Positions 49,024-58,384 of a stretch of 58,384 nucleotides of DNA are shown piece by piece. Both the position numbers and the translations under genes were made by a program. Within the stretch, counting starts at the first letter, position 1. Each line of letters begins with the position of its first letter. The stretch is from a virus, in the IMG/VR virus record IMGVR_UViG_3300046455_000736, positions 1 through 58,384 of that record; one strand, written 5' to 3'. The notes beneath the pieces are model-generated. The model worked only from the letters and a program-made list of their open reading frames with translations, did no database searches and was not told the DNA's origin.

Positions 49024-50088
49024 ATGACCCCTTCCCACCAGATACTGGTCGGAGATTGCATCGACATGATGCAAACTTTGCCAGACCAGTCAGTGCAGTG
49101 CTGCGTGACCAGCCCGCCTTATTTCGGGTTGCGGGATTACGGCGTCGACGGGCAGATCGGACTGGAGGAAACACCGGCCGAATTCATCGCCCGCCTGGTC
49201 GACGTGTTCCGAGAGGTGCGCCGAGTACTCCGCGCCGACGGTACGGCCTGGGTGAACATGGGTGACAGCTACGCAGCGCGCTCCACCGGCAATCTTTCGT
49301 TTCGCCGCGATAGAGCTGCCATCTCGCCAGATCGCGCACCGCTAACGGACGGGATCAAGGTCAAGGACATGATGGGCATGCCCTGGCGTTTGGCTTTCGC
49401 CCTTCAGGACGATGGCTGGTATTTGCGTCAAGACATCATCTGGCACAAGCCGAACCCGATGCCGGAGAGCGTGCGCGACCGCTGCACCAAATCCCACGAA
49501 TACATCTTCCTGCTGAGCAAGTCGCAGAAGTACTACTTCGACCAAGGCGCGATCCTTGAACCCTGTTCCCCGAACACCCACAACCGACTGTCGCAGGATG
49601 TTCTCGCGCAGATCGGTAGCGAGCGTGCAAATGGGGGAGCCAAAACCAACGGCAACATGAAAGCAGTGGCCAGGAAGTCGAACGGCGTTGGCTGGGGGCA
49701 TGGTACAGACGACAAAGAACGTTGCAGGGGCAGGATCAAAGACAACGAGTCGATGGACTCGGCACTGGCAGTAATGCCCAGCGAGCGGAACAAGCGCAGT
49801 GTCTGGACAGTGGCCACCCACAGCTTCAAGGGCGCCCATTTTGCGACCTTCCCGCCCGACCTGATAAGACCATGCGTTTTGGCCGGGGCACCGCGCGGCG
49901 GCATTGTGCTGGACCCTTTCGGCGGTGCCGGTACCACGGCGGTGGTCGCCATGCAGGAAGGCCGGAAGTCAGTCCTCTGCGAACTAAACCCGCACTATGC
50001 CGCCATGGCCGAACGCCGAATTGCAGCGGCCTGGCTCGACGGCGCGGCACAGATGGACGTTTTTCACGACTCTGCGCCAGCCGCCTGA
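49024..50088 (+). CDS. DNA methyltransferase (N4-cytosine/N6-adenine type)
   Basis: A 354-aa beta-class amino-methyltransferase. Catalytic motif IV TSPPYFGLRDYG (residues 29-40) comes first, and the cofactor motif LDPFGGAGTTAVVAMQEGRK near the C-terminus. The middle (about 95-280) would recognise the target. SPPY favours N4-cytosine, but N6-adenine cannot be excluded. No restriction enzyme gene is near, so it probably protects phage DNA from host restriction. Confidence 0.88.
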   Translation: MTPSHQILVGDCIDMMQTLPDQSVQCCVTSPPYFGLRDYGVDGQIGLEETPAEFIARLVDVFREVRRVLRADGTAWVNMGDSYAARSTGNLSFRRDRAAISPDRAPLTDGIKVKDMMGMPWRLAFALQDDGWYLRQDIIWHKPNPMPESVRDRCTKSHEYIFLLSKSQKYYFDQGAILEPCSPNTHNRLSQDVLAQIGSERANGGAKTNGNMKAVARKSNGVGWGHGTDDKERCRGRIKDNESMDSALAVMPSERNKRSVWTVATHSFKGAHFATFPPDLIRPCVLAGAPRGGIVLDPFGGAGTTAVVAMQEGRKSVLCELNPHYAAMAERRIAAAWLDGAAQMDVFHDSAPAA

Positions 50089-50402: not shown

Positions 50403-50465
50403 CTGATAACGCTCCTGATTTGTGAACGCAGAAGCTATCCCAAATTGTCACTTTCATCTAGCCCT

Positions 50466-50486
50466 TCACGCCAGCCGGCGAGGATC
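50466..50486. repeat. 21-bp boundary repeat / gene leader, copy 2
   Basis: Identical to 1134-1154; supplies GCGAGGA as ribosome-binding site for the methyltransferase at 50491. Confidence 0.85.
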
Positions 50487-50490
50487 CCCT

Positions 50491-52656
50491 ATGTCCGCAC
50501 AACAGAAGAAACATCCCTTCGATTTCAAAACCCAATACGGACTTGGCTTCAGCTCTCAGGACGATGAGATCGTGGTCGACTTCTTCTGTGGTGGTGGCGG
50601 CGCCGGTACCGGACTGGAAATGGGTCTGGGCCGTGCGGTGAATGTCGCGAAGAATCACAGCCCTCAAGCGATCAGTATGCACACCGTGAATCACCCGGGC
50701 GCCGTGCACTACACCACCGACGTGTTCGACGGTGATCCGGATACGGAGTGTGGCGGCAAGGCCGTTGGCTGGTTCCACATGTCCCCGGACTGCACGCACC
50801 ATAGCCAGGCCGCCGGTGGCCAGCCGCGCAAACGTGAGATTCGCAACCTGTCGTGGATCGGTCTGAAGTGGGCCGGCAAGAAAAAGCCCCGCGTCATCAG
50901 CCTGGAGAACGTGAAACAGATCCTCCAGTGGGGGCCGCTGATCGCCAAGCGCTGCAAGGCAACTGGTCGAGTAATGAAACTGGGCGGCGCCATTGCCGAG
51001 CCGGGCGAAGTCGTCCCGGTCCACCAGCAGTTCCTGGTGCCTGACCCGAAGCGGCGCGGCCAGACCTGGGCAACCTTTGTCGCCGAATTGCAGCACCTGG
51101 GCTACGTCATCGAGTGGCGAGTGTTGAAGGCCTGCGATTTCGGTGCACCAACCAGCCGGGAGCGACTGTTTATGATTGCCCGCTGCGACGGCGAGCCGAT
51201 TGTCTGGCCGGCGCCAACGCACGCCAAGCACCCGGTAAAAGGTCAGCAGAAATGGCGCACGGCCGCCGAGTGCATCGACTGGACGATCCCGAGCAAAAGC
51301 ATCTTCGACCGGCCCAAGCCGTTGGCACCCGCCACCCTGCGCCGAATCGCCAAAGGCATGAAGAAGTTCGTCATTGATGCCGCCGACCCTTTTATCGTGC
51401 CGATCGCAAACTGGTCCGCGGAAAGCGTGCAGTCAGCGCACGACCCGCTACGCACCGTGACCTCTTGGCCGCGCGGTGGATCCTTCGCCATGGCCAGCCC
51501 GATCATCGCGCCAGCCACGCACCAGGGCAGCGACCGGATCAACGACCCACACGCCCCGCTGCCGACGGTGACCTGCGCCAACCGCGGAGAACTGACGCTG
51601 ATCAGTCCTGTGATGGTTAACGCCGCACACGGCGAAGGAAAACCCGGCGGCGTTCAGCGGTGGGGAGACGGCAGCAAGTCTGCTGCTGATCCACTCGGGA
51701 CTGTAACCGCCAGCGGCGGTCATTCAGTCGCCACGGCCGTGCTGGTTGGCGCCGGTGGGCCGGAGTACTCGGGCAAACCGGCATCGATTGATCAGCCAGC
51801 GGGAACGCTGATGACCCAGAACCATCGCGCGATCGCCGCTGCGGCACTTGTTCAGCTCGGAAATGGTGACAAGCCGGGGTCTGCACCGCGCAGCGCCGAT
51901 CTTGCCCAGCCATTGGGAACCATCATGGCTTCCGGCGGGAAGTACGGCATTGCGACAGCCTTCATGGCCCAGATGAATGGCGGCTTCAACACCATTGACG
52001 CCAAGAGCGTTGAAGACCCGATGACCACGGTGACCAACACCGGCAGCCAGCAGCAGCTGGTGACCGCAAACCTGGTGCACCTGCGCGGCAACTGCGATGC
52101 GCGGGATGTTGCTGATCCACTTCACACCATCAGTGCCGGCGGAACTCACCACGGGCTGGTCACCGCGTTCATGGAGCGCCAGTTCGGAGCCAGCGTTGGC
52201 CAGGCTGTCGACGAGCCAGCGCCAACCATCACTGCGGGCGGCGGTGGCAAAAGCTCGCTGGTTGAGTTTCAGCTTTCGCCAGAGGTTGAAGCCGGCGCAC
52301 TGCGTGTCGCGGCATTCCTGATCAGCTATTACGGCACCGAGAACGTTAGCGGCGCCGGCGAACCAGCACCGACCATCACCACCAAGGATCGCCTGGGTCT
52401 GGTCACCGTGACGATCAAAGGCACGCCGTACGTAATCGTCGACATCTGCCTACGGATGCTTCAGCCGGCCGAGCTGTACAAGGCTCAGGGCTTCCCTGCC
52501 GACTACATCATCAGTCACGGAGCTGACGGCAAGCCATTCACGAAGACCCAGCAGGTGCACATGTGCGGGAATAGCGTCAGTCCGCCACCGATGGCGGCGC
52601 TGGCTCGAGCGAATGATCCATGGAAAGCGATTATCGATCAGGCGGCTGCGGCATAA
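50491..52656 (+). CDS. C5-cytosine DNA methyltransferase with repeat domain
   Basis: A 721-aa protein, about twice the usual size. Motif I VVDFFCGGGGAG (28-39). Motif IV is SPDCTHHS with catalytic Cys101 in place of PPCQ. ENV motif SLENVKQ. At the end motif IX (RMLQPAELYKAQGFPADY) and X (CGNSVSPPPM). Between them, residues about 310-650 hold about nine imperfect repeats of the type D-x-P-L-x-T-(V/I)-T-x-x-G-x-x-x-L-V-x-A. They probably form a repetitive target-recognition domain. The role is likely anti-restriction. Ribosome-binding site comes from the boundary repeat. Confidence 0.88.
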   Translation: MSAQQKKHPFDFKTQYGLGFSSQDDEIVVDFFCGGGGAGTGLEMGLGRAVNVAKNHSPQAISMHTVNHPGAVHYTTDVFDGDPDTECGGKAVGWFHMSPDCTHHSQAAGGQPRKREIRNLSWIGLKWAGKKKPRVISLENVKQILQWGPLIAKRCKATGRVMKLGGAIAEPGEVVPVHQQFLVPDPKRRGQTWATFVAELQHLGYVIEWRVLKACDFGAPTSRERLFMIARCDGEPIVWPAPTHAKHPVKGQQKWRTAAECIDWTIPSKSIFDRPKPLAPATLRRIAKGMKKFVIDAADPFIVPIANWSAESVQSAHDPLRTVTSWPRGGSFAMASPIIAPATHQGSDRINDPHAPLPTVTCANRGELTLISPVMVNAAHGEGKPGGVQRWGDGSKSAADPLGTVTASGGHSVATAVLVGAGGPEYSGKPASIDQPAGTLMTQNHRAIAAAALVQLGNGDKPGSAPRSADLAQPLGTIMASGGKYGIATAFMAQMNGGFNTIDAKSVEDPMTTVTNTGSQQQLVTANLVHLRGNCDARDVADPLHTISAGGTHHGLVTAFMERQFGASVGQAVDEPAPTITAGGGGKSSLVEFQLSPEVEAGALRVAAFLISYYGTENVSGAGEPAPTITTKDRLGLVTVTIKGTPYVIVDICLRMLQPAELYKAQGFPADYIISHGADGKPFTKTQQVHMCGNSVSPPPMAALARANDPWKAIIDQAAAA

Positions 52657-52674
52657 AACGATATCCCAGAACCG

Positions 52675-52706
52675 CAAAACCCCCTCCATTGCTGGAAGGG
52701 GTTTTG
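52675..52706 (+). terminator. Terminator of the C5-methyltransferase gene
   Basis: CAAAACCCC, TCC...GGA inner stem, GGGGTTTTG. It lies 19 bases after the stop and directly touches the 3' end of the tRNA-like gene, for which it may serve in the other direction. Confidence 0.7.
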
Positions 52707-52793
52707 TGGAGAGGACGGGATTCGAACCCGTGGACCGGTTTCCCAGTCGTCGACTTATCAGGTCGGTGCAATCGGCCACTCTGCCACCTCTGG
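52707..52793 (-). tRNA. tRNA-Ser-like gene with anticodon GAT
   Basis: Read on the minus strand, an 87-nt class II tRNA: D arm GCAGAGTGGCCGATTGC, anticodon loop CTGATAA (anticodon GAT at positions 34-36), long variable arm, T arm ACGGG TTCGAAT CCCGT. The body (AGAGGTGGCAGAGTGG..., long variable arm) is serine-like, but GAT reads the isoleucine codon ATC. The first two acceptor pairs are C-C mismatches and CCA is not encoded. It may be degenerate, or altered for a special purpose. Confidence 0.6.
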
Positions 52794-54777: not shown

Positions 54778-54833
54778 TCCTCCCCGCCCTCGCCTACATG
54801 GCCTGACTCATCTACTCGGGGCCACAGCGATGA
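54774..54833 (+). pseudogene. Tiny hydrophobic ORF with in-frame TGA
   Basis: ATG 54774 overlaps the preceding stop and the final TGA (54831-54833) overlaps the next start codon, both as ATGA. The frame is MILPALAYMA, then TGA (54804-54806), then LIYSGPQR. Coupling at both ends suggests that the whole 20-codon frame was once translated. It parallels the frame at 44273, where a stop also follows a hydrophobic stretch ending in Ala and precedes a piece with YSG. Confidence 0.4.
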
Positions 54834-55075
54834 ACACCTACCGGCACACTTTCTCAGCTATCTGCCCGTCCGACGGCGAGACGATAATCTACCGGCTTGA
54901 GTTGCGGTCTCCTGCCATGATCCACGTCGAGCATATCAAGGCGGCTACAGCGCTGATCAAGAAGGGATGGCATGAACAGATCGCCGACCGCCTGGCTGAA
55001 TCTTTGGGCGGCGATCAAACAATCATTGCGACGCATCAGGGCGTCGAGATCGAAACAATGAGGCTCAGCGGATGA
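54830..55075 (+). CDS. Small protein (81 aa)
   Basis: MNTYRHTFSAICPSDGETII, then HVEHIKAATALIKKGWHEQI ADRLAES. An alpha/beta protein, coupled by ATGA to the next gene. Unknown. Confidence 0.6.
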   Translation: MNTYRHTFSAICPSDGETIIYRLELRSPAMIHVEHIKAATALIKKGWHEQIADRLAESLGGDQTIIATHQGVEIETMRLSG

Positions 55076-55797
55076 TCGCTTATCACGGCACGCCGATCGG
55101 GGGTACCCGGCAGGATGGCGCCAGGTTCCTCGCCGGCCGGCATGCGCTGGTGCCGTTTCCGCGCCAGGACGACATGGGCATCGTCGCCGACGTTTGCCAA
55201 TCGTTCGTCTTCGACAACGGTGCGTTTTCGGTATGGAAGAAAGGCGGCACGCTGGATGTCGACGGGTACACCCGTTGGGTCGAGCAGTGGCACCGGCACC
55301 CGGGCTTCGACTGGGCGCTGATCCCTGACGTGATTGATGGCGATGAGGCAGCGAACGATGCCCTTCTGGAAGCCTGGCCGATTGAATTGCGCGGTGTACC
55401 AGTCTGGCATCTGCACGAAACGCTTGAGCGTCTTGCTCGCCTGGCTGCTGACTGGCCGACAGTGGCCATCGGCAGTTCCGGTCAGTGGGCAAGTCCGGGA
55501 ACACCGGCTTGGTGGAAGCGGATCAGTTCAGCGATGGACGCTATCTGCGACGACCAGGGCCGGCCCGCTTGCCGCCTTCACGGCTTGCGAATGCTCGACC
55601 CGGCGATCTTCCAGCACCTGCCATTCGCCTCAGCCGACTCCACTAACGCCGCAGTCAACGGTGGGAGCATCAGCCGCTTCGGGATGTATGTCCCGCCCAC
55701 CGCCGGCCAGCGCGCCAACGTCATTGCCGACCGCATTGAATCACACAACAGTTCGCCGATCTGGCAGCGAGAAACTCAGGTCGAGTTAGCACTTTAG
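55072..55797 (+). CDS. TGT/DpdA-like TIM-barrel protein, candidate DNA or tRNA base exchange
   Basis: A 241-aa protein. FDNGAFSVW (47-55), DWALIPDVIDGD (80-91), VPVWHLHETLERL (109-121), VAIGSSG (131-137), LHGLRML (169-175) and FASADST (185-191) follow each other like the strands of the tRNA-guanine transglycosylase barrel. The last motif recalls S-x-D-S of phage DpdA enzymes, which insert 7-deazaguanine bases into DNA. No precursor synthesis genes are in the window, so the host would have to supply the base. Recognition is by pattern only. Confidence 0.5.
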   Translation: MIAYHGTPIGGTRQDGARFLAGRHALVPFPRQDDMGIVADVCQSFVFDNGAFSVWKKGGTLDVDGYTRWVEQWHRHPGFDWALIPDVIDGDEAANDALLEAWPIELRGVPVWHLHETLERLARLAADWPTVAIGSSGQWASPGTPAWWKRISSAMDAICDDQGRPACRLHGLRMLDPAIFQHLPFASADSTNAAVNGGSISRFGMYVPPTAGQRANVIADRIESHNSSPIWQRETQVELAL

Positions 55798-57352: not shown

Positions 57353-58384
57353 ATGGGAAGACGACCAAGTAAACCCGGCTCTATAGCCCGGCTGCGAGAG
57401 CGCAAGAAAGCCAGCGGCCGGGTTTTCTACTACTACGACACTGGCGGAAAGGACCGCAAAGAGATTCCGCTGGGCAGCGACTATGGCTTGGCGATCATGG
57501 AGTACGCAAAGTTTGAGCGTGATCGGACCGCGACCGACTTGGTCGCCAAGGTGATCACCTTCCGTTACGTCGCCGAAAAGTACATGGTCGACATCGTCCC
57601 CACCAAAGGCAAAGCCACCCAGTTAGACAACAAACGGGAAATGAAGAACCTGATTGCGTTCTTTGATGATCCGCCAGCGCCACTGGAAACGATCGAGCCG
57701 CTTCATGTAAGGCAGTACCTCACCTGGCGGAAGGCGGCTCCGGTCAGGGCGAATCGTGAAAAGGCACTGCTCAGCGCAATTTGGAACTACGCCAGGGACA
57801 AGGGCTACACGTCTCTGGCCAACCCCTGCGCTGGAATCAAGGGCAATAAAGAGACTGGGCGGGACACATACGTCGAGGATGAACTGTTCAAGCGCGTACA
57901 CGACAAAGCCGATATCGGTCTTCAAGACGCCATGGACCTTGCCTATTTGACCGGACAGCGAGTGACCGACACTCGACTGATGGACGAACGGGATGTCCGC
58001 GACGGCCAAATTTGGGTGCTTCAGGGAAAAACAAAGGCCAAGCGGCGAATCGAGGTTACCGGTGAACTCAAGGTTTTAATTGATCGAATCATGTCCCGAA
58101 AGTCCGGGCACAAGGTCCGCTCGACACGGCTGATCGTGTCAGAAGATGGCGCACCGATGACGGTGGCGATGTTGCGCAGGCGTTTTGACATGGCCAGGGA
58201 GGCCGCGGGAGTATCCAAGCCGGAGTTCCAATTGCGTGATTTGCGCGCAAAGGCCGGTACGGACAAAGCAGAATCCAGTGGCGACATCATGCAGGCCAAG
58301 GATCAACTTGGGCATACCACCGTTGTTATGACGGAGCAGTACATCCGCAACCGCAAGGGCAAGAAAGTCTCACCAACTAAGTGA
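57353..58384 (+). CDS. Tyrosine recombinase (phage integrase)
   Basis: A 343-aa integrase. The N-terminal arm-binding part has SGRVFYYYDTGGKDRKEIPL, then comes a core-binding domain (about 68-155). The catalytic domain has Arg203 (TGQRVTDTR), a beta-hairpin lysine near 226-230 (GKTKAKRR), R-D-L-R at 295-298 (His of the usual H-x-x-R is replaced by Arg), His321 (LGHTTVVM) and the nucleophile Tyr330. It is expected to recombine in the 3' half of tRNA-Leu(TAA), of which a fragment is at 1352-1409. The stop codon ends the window. Confidence 0.9.
   Translation: MGRRPSKPGSIARLRERKKASGRVFYYYDTGGKDRKEIPLGSDYGLAIMEYAKFERDRTATDLVAKVITFRYVAEKYMVDIVPTKGKATQLDNKREMKNLIAFFDDPPAPLETIEPLHVRQYLTWRKAAPVRANREKALLSAIWNYARDKGYTSLANPCAGIKGNKETGRDTYVEDELFKRVHDKADIGLQDAMDLAYLTGQRVTDTRLMDERDVRDGQIWVLQGKTKAKRRIEVTGELKVLIDRIMSRKSGHKVRSTRLIVSEDGAPMTVAMLRRRFDMAREAAGVSKPEFQLRDLRAKAGTDKAESSGDIMQAKDQLGHTTVVMTEQYIRNRKGKKVSPTK

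Follow-up and report, generated by a model that had tools for sequence, protein, structure and literature searches.

The viral DNA analysed here (58,384 nucleotides, IMG/VR record IMGVR_UViG_3300046455_000736; hereafter the window) encodes a compact member of the DpdA family together with an overlapping upstream gene for an 81-aa protein predicted to adopt the tunnelling fold (T-fold). The best explanation of this pair, to which we give a probability of roughly 60%, is a two-gene 7-deazaguanine cassette in which DpdA loads phage DNA with preQ0 taken from the host and the nitrile is then processed by the T-fold protein. The host queuosine pathway would supply preQ0, the compact DpdA would exchange guanine in phage DNA for it, and the T-fold protein, with a Cys12 that would correspond to the nitrile-attacking cysteine of QueF-Like, would act on the 7-cyano group. 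Its substrate would be either the base already inserted into DNA or the free base prior to insertion. The product might be dG+, dADG or dPreQ1, with dG+ being what QueF-Like chemistry would predict. The genes concerned and the two methyltransferase genes in their vicinity are as follows.

49024–50088, + strand: N4/N6 DNA methyltransferase (PF01555, E 4e-49), context and not a constant part
50422–52656, + strand: C5-cytosine DNA methyltransferase (PF00145, E 8e-24), context and not a constant part
54830–55075, + strand: 81-aa T-fold protein resembling QueF-Like (PHROG 37496, function unknown), overlapping the start of dpdA
55072–55797, + strand: compact DpdA of 241 aa (7-deazaguanine DNA transglycosylase family, TGT superfamily), assigned from PHROG 887, AlphaFold2 fold and homology

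The open reading frame at 55072–55797 is a genuine gene on which purifying selection acts, with an ATG start codon that overlaps the stop of the upstream frame (ATGA), a GAGG about 8 nt before it and a median dN/dS of ~0.06 against close relatives (NG86; dS high, median 1.3). The four motifs from which a first-pass annotation had proposed a TGT/DpdA-like enzyme are present (D48-N-G-A-F, IPDVIDG including D86, HGLRM including H170, and S187-A-D189-S-T). Across 289 DpdA homologues, D48, G50, A51, H113, G134, H170, D189 and S190 are invariant or nearly so, as are P-D86, H170-G and S-x-D189-S, the catalytic aspartates being retained in 286/289 (D48) and 288/289 (D189) sequences. This near-invariance, together with a match to PHROG 887 ('queuine tRNA-ribosyltransferase', E 8e-68) and the reach of phmmer from the window protein to the DpdA of phage 9g (~1e-6), indicates that the motifs did not arise by chance. 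The protein is short and matches no family in Pfam (at E up to 1), NCBIfam or PADLOC, as might be expected of a decayed or inactive remnant, but the low dN/dS, the invariant motifs and the normal size of proteins in the compact clade (226–288 aa) make such a remnant extremely improbable.

The AlphaFold2 model of DpdA (81 sequences as input; pLDDT 92.1, pTM 0.90) is an eight-stranded barrel. When VIA-align was run on the 1000 best Foldseek chains, the best 50 matches were all TGT entries or Cap10 (Z 14.1–16.2), led by the archaeal enzyme arcTGT (1iq8; Z 16.2, rmsd 3.2 Å, 220 aligned residues); this resolved the ranking from plain Foldseek, which listed many TIM barrels with arcTGT sixth. Sequence searches of the PDB returned nothing useful for either DpdA or the 81-aa protein. 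The proposed TGT/DpdA family and fold are thus upheld by PHROG 887, by phmmer and by a structure prediction that returned a TIM barrel with TGTs as its closest matches, so that the enzyme withstands the refuting condition named in the first-pass annotation, a fold other than a TIM barrel. Two marks of a canonical tRNA-guanine transglycosylase are lacking: PF01702 is unmatched and the CxCxxC zinc motif is absent, the protein having three cysteines in all. The structural match to arcTGT, membership of the TGT superfamily and the activity of QueF-Like on preQ0-tRNA (PMC5485725) would all suit an enzyme that modifies host or phage tRNA instead of DNA and so alters translation during infection. This is improbable, however, because the closest characterised relatives (MED16 and 9g) modify DNA, the zinc motif and the Pfam TGT match are lacking, the hosts have their own TGT, and the single tRNA predicted in the window is read as tRNA-Ile (GAT), not a usual queuosine tRNA. 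The third-ranked VIA-align match, Cap10 (9ntn; Z 15.3, rmsd 3.6 Å), raises the further idea that DpdA attaches 7-deazaguanine to protein, as in type IV CBASS, but this is very unlikely given how closely the sequence resembles phage DpdA and given that the partner QueC-family (Cap9) gene, PF06508, was found neither in the window nor in 41 related records.

Homologues of the window DpdA were recovered by tblastn (E 0.01) from 231 phage records, the best being Pseudomonas phage Epa33 (79.7%), and include the DpdAs of Pantoea phage MED16 (40% identity, pairwise E 1e-49) and Salmonella phage 7-11 (38% identity). These two share the compact family with the window protein and likewise come from phages in which no precursor genes were found, but no T-fold gene was seen beside their dpdA, whereas in the window the two genes overlap. 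The DpdAs of Enterobacteria phage 9g and of Seuratvirus are homologous and carry the D-[SN]-G-A-F and S/C-x-D-S motifs, but they are longer (~290 aa), show weak identity to the window protein (~25%) and adjoin FolE, QueD and QueC. A quick DpdA tree with long branches placed the canonical proteins (9g, slur01, BcepGomr, RHEph04 and Vibrio 1.207; outgroup) together and apart from the compact clade. One locus in Acidovorax delafieldii (L122:6382-7146) has dpdA split into two open reading frames.

The AlphaFold2 model of the 81-aa protein (pLDDT 96.2) has the β-β-α-α-β-β order of the T-fold, and Foldseek followed by VIA-align placed QueF-Like (5jyx/5k0p) first, with all 81 residues superposed at 1.2 Å rmsd (Z 12.8), against Z up to 11.4 for GTP cyclohydrolase and 9.6 for unimodular QueF. 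GTP cyclohydrolase and QueD were rejected as identities on the basis of this worse fit (Z up to 11.4 and ~8 to 9.6, respectively), and neither of their motifs (CxHH and the histidine metal site) was seen in the sequence. Six residues do not vary among 96 T-fold sequences (C12, in 96/96, P13, Y21, E49, H69 and G71), while position 48 holds either His or Gln and position 15 is Asp in 81 and Asn in 15. QueF proteins carry the motif CPxTGQPD, with a general-acid Asp at Cys+7; judged by sequence, the equivalent position is Ile in 94/96 of the T-fold proteins and Asp in one. PF14489 has no match in the window, and profile–profile comparison (hhalign) of the T-fold family with QueF was weak (probability ~6%, P 0.006; controls P 0.05–0.5). 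Aligning model residues 1–81 with chain residues 10–102 puts Cys12, which follows the first strand, at approximately residue 21, a correspondence drawn from chain ranges and not from a residue-level map. In QueF-Like, a thioimide is formed between Cys21 and either preQ0 or preQ0-tRNA, and in the tRNA case the adduct goes on to react with ammonia (PMC5485725). The window protein thus resembles this archaeosine synthase in its predicted fold and in the approximate placement of a cysteine, but differs in its length of 81 aa, its 20% identity, its lack of an Asp at Cys+7 and its pairing with a phage DpdA. On the strength of the model, it would best be described as QueF-Like-resembling, and not as QueF-Like, because of the missing Asp, the weak profile agreement and a cysteine match taken from chain ranges alone.

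Linkage of the T-fold gene to dpdA is constant wherever the gene was found. It lies on the same strand as dpdA and within ~400 bases of it in all 106 loci that have it, directly upstream in 97, upstream after a short gap in 2 and directly downstream in 7. Searching in reverse from the T-fold protein, a scan that covers mainly close relatives, dpdA adjoined it in 80/80 loci kept. In Rhizobium phage RHph_X2_30, recovered from a phage collection through the small protein, a DUF165 transporter gene is followed by a small ORF, the T-fold gene and a DpdA-like gene. Another 185 dpdA loci are without a T-fold gene, and inspection by eye revealed none beside the dpdA of MED16, 7-11, SPN3UB, SfI, AB3P2 and others. 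The lack of a recognisable T-fold neighbour in MED16 and 7-11 suggests that the dpdA of the compact clade can work without one.

Members of Vut_1 (DUF165), the queuosine-precursor transporter family to which the preQ0 transporter YhhQ belongs, are encoded near dpdA in 16 distinct loci (L211 and L212 perhaps being one phage), although the window itself has none. In 16/16 of these the gene abuts dpdA or lies ≤600 bases from it, upstream or downstream and on the same strand, and no Vut_1 gene occurs elsewhere in the fetched dpdA flanks. Three of the five seed proteins (L086, Pam5 and AB3P2) score above the Pfam cut-off for Vut_1, the two from LHE71 and Phleasolo matching weakly. In two virus contigs whose DpdA is 83% identical to that of the window (L086 and L087), Vut_1 fills the slot that the T-fold gene occupies in most close relatives. 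On the DpdA tree, gain or loss of the T-fold gene is needed at least 15 times and that of Vut_1 at least 11 times, always beside dpdA, indicating that both genes joined or left dpdA repeatedly. YhhQ homologues were noted in some phages by Hutinet et al., with no correlation with phage group (PMC6884629).

Other genes were also observed in this position. On one viral contig a QueD-like (PTPS) ORF, another precursor-pathway gene, overlaps the dpdA start (L191:2117-2446), and in a Cupriavidus genome the overlapping ORF is PP-loop and PAPS-reductase-like (L116:7015-8004). Pam5 (L005:5678-5938) and RHph_X2_30 (L297:3748-3993) have in common a second small conserved ORF (ERADGxPIDPSRRY...LDFSGADP), which follows or precedes the dpdA part of the cluster on the side of the Vut_1 gene, in the space between the two.

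These patterns also bear on a second possibility, in which a 7-deazaguanine from the host is still inserted into DNA by DpdA but the T-fold protein assists without catalysing a step, for instance as a carrier of preQ0 or as a subunit that brings DpdA to the DNA. Consistent with such a role, the QueF-type Asp is not kept at Cys+7, the T-fold gene is missing from 185 dpdA loci, and the transporter gene takes the same slot in L086 and L087, as if both served substrate supply. The invariance of Cys12, Glu49 and His69 in 96 sequences, however, goes beyond the needs of a scaffold, and we regard a helper role as rather unlikely, though worth keeping in mind. Processing of the nitrile by the T-fold protein remains our preferred reading.

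The first-pass annotation had described a possible base-exchange enzyme without a precursor pathway, which would draw on the host pool or act on tRNA. Models of QueC, QueD, QueF and FolE (GTP cyclohydrolase I) had no match in the window (QueE being outside the search), which bears out the lack of preQ0 genes for these four, and the QueC and QueD models had none in the other 41 compact-DpdA records; as a positive control, 6/6 canonical DpdA phages were matched by both the QueC and the QueD searches. The enzyme is not quite alone, however, being accompanied by the overlapping QueF-Like-resembling T-fold gene. Related host genomes encode QueC (18/18), TGT (18/18) and QueF (8/8), and the gene content of the window together with QueC and TGT in all 18 supports the host pool as precursor source. 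An integrase gene is located at 57353–58384, and the window probably derives from a temperate Pseudomonas phage, the host being suggested by the nearest loci in host genomes, 14 with ≥81% identity, all of which are in Pseudomonas.

DpdA in phages without precursor genes is an already-known class, corresponding to group 3 of Hutinet 2019 (PMC6884629), which was the largest in that survey with 76 phages and whose modification was called difficult to predict (PMC6884629). Among phages with dpdA only, MED16 contains dADG at ~0.13% of G, the restriction enzymes tested being little affected (PMC8306585), and 7-11 contains a trace of dADG, the protein responsible having been left open (PMC6884629), whereas Mycobacterium phage Orion, whose host makes no preQ0, has no modification (PMC6884629). 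The modified DNA of MED16 and 7-11 was counted in favour of the cassette; counted against it were the unmodified DNA of Orion, the Ile at Cys+7, the weak hhalign result, the T-fold-free loci of MED16 and 7-11 and the quick, long-branched tree.

More tentatively, and with slightly less than even confidence, we suggest that the 81-aa protein represents a novel, minimal T-fold enzyme for processing the preQ0 nitrile in or for DNA, that a complete host-fed two-gene hypermodification cassette is present in many 'DpdA-only' phages, and that Vut_1–dpdA pairs are a salvage variant of it. Phages thought to hold the swapping enzyme alone may then carry a two-gene cassette that uses host precursor, and the QueF-Like-fold partner, with the transporter in other lineages, leads to testable expectations, namely a host or imported source of preQ0 and a dedicated second step in some lineages. 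Should the 81-aa protein be active, it would represent a very small pathway enzyme and a simple tool for placing 7-deazaguanines in DNA. No earlier description of the T-fold partner or of strict dpdA–Vut_1 adjacency was found in the literature covered, which did not include Cui et al. 2023, and their novelty is provisional. That paper (NAR), which reportedly describes four further 7-deazaguanine derivatives, may be relevant here.

The two methyltransferases (METHYLTRANSFERASES) are real, as shown by their matches to PF00145 and PF01555, but the suggestion that they form a layered DNA-protection set with DpdA fares poorly. Relatives of the C5 enzyme occur in the fetched flanks of 31/95 close dpdA loci and those of the N4/N6 enzyme in 7/95, some of them shortened, and the low dADG level and little-affected restriction of MED16 (PMC8306585) also weigh against it. 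A fixed methyltransferase–DpdA module was rejected on the same counts, and the two genes are best regarded as neighbours. A C5-cytosine methyltransferase gene directly adjoins dpdA in Epa33 (L001:12740-14830) and lies directly upstream of it in a Pseudomonas capeferrum genome (L111). In the window, ARAGORN places the tRNA-Ile (GAT) at 52706–52793 on the − strand, a short way beyond the end of the C5 methyltransferase gene; at 88 nt it is unusually long for tRNA-Ile.
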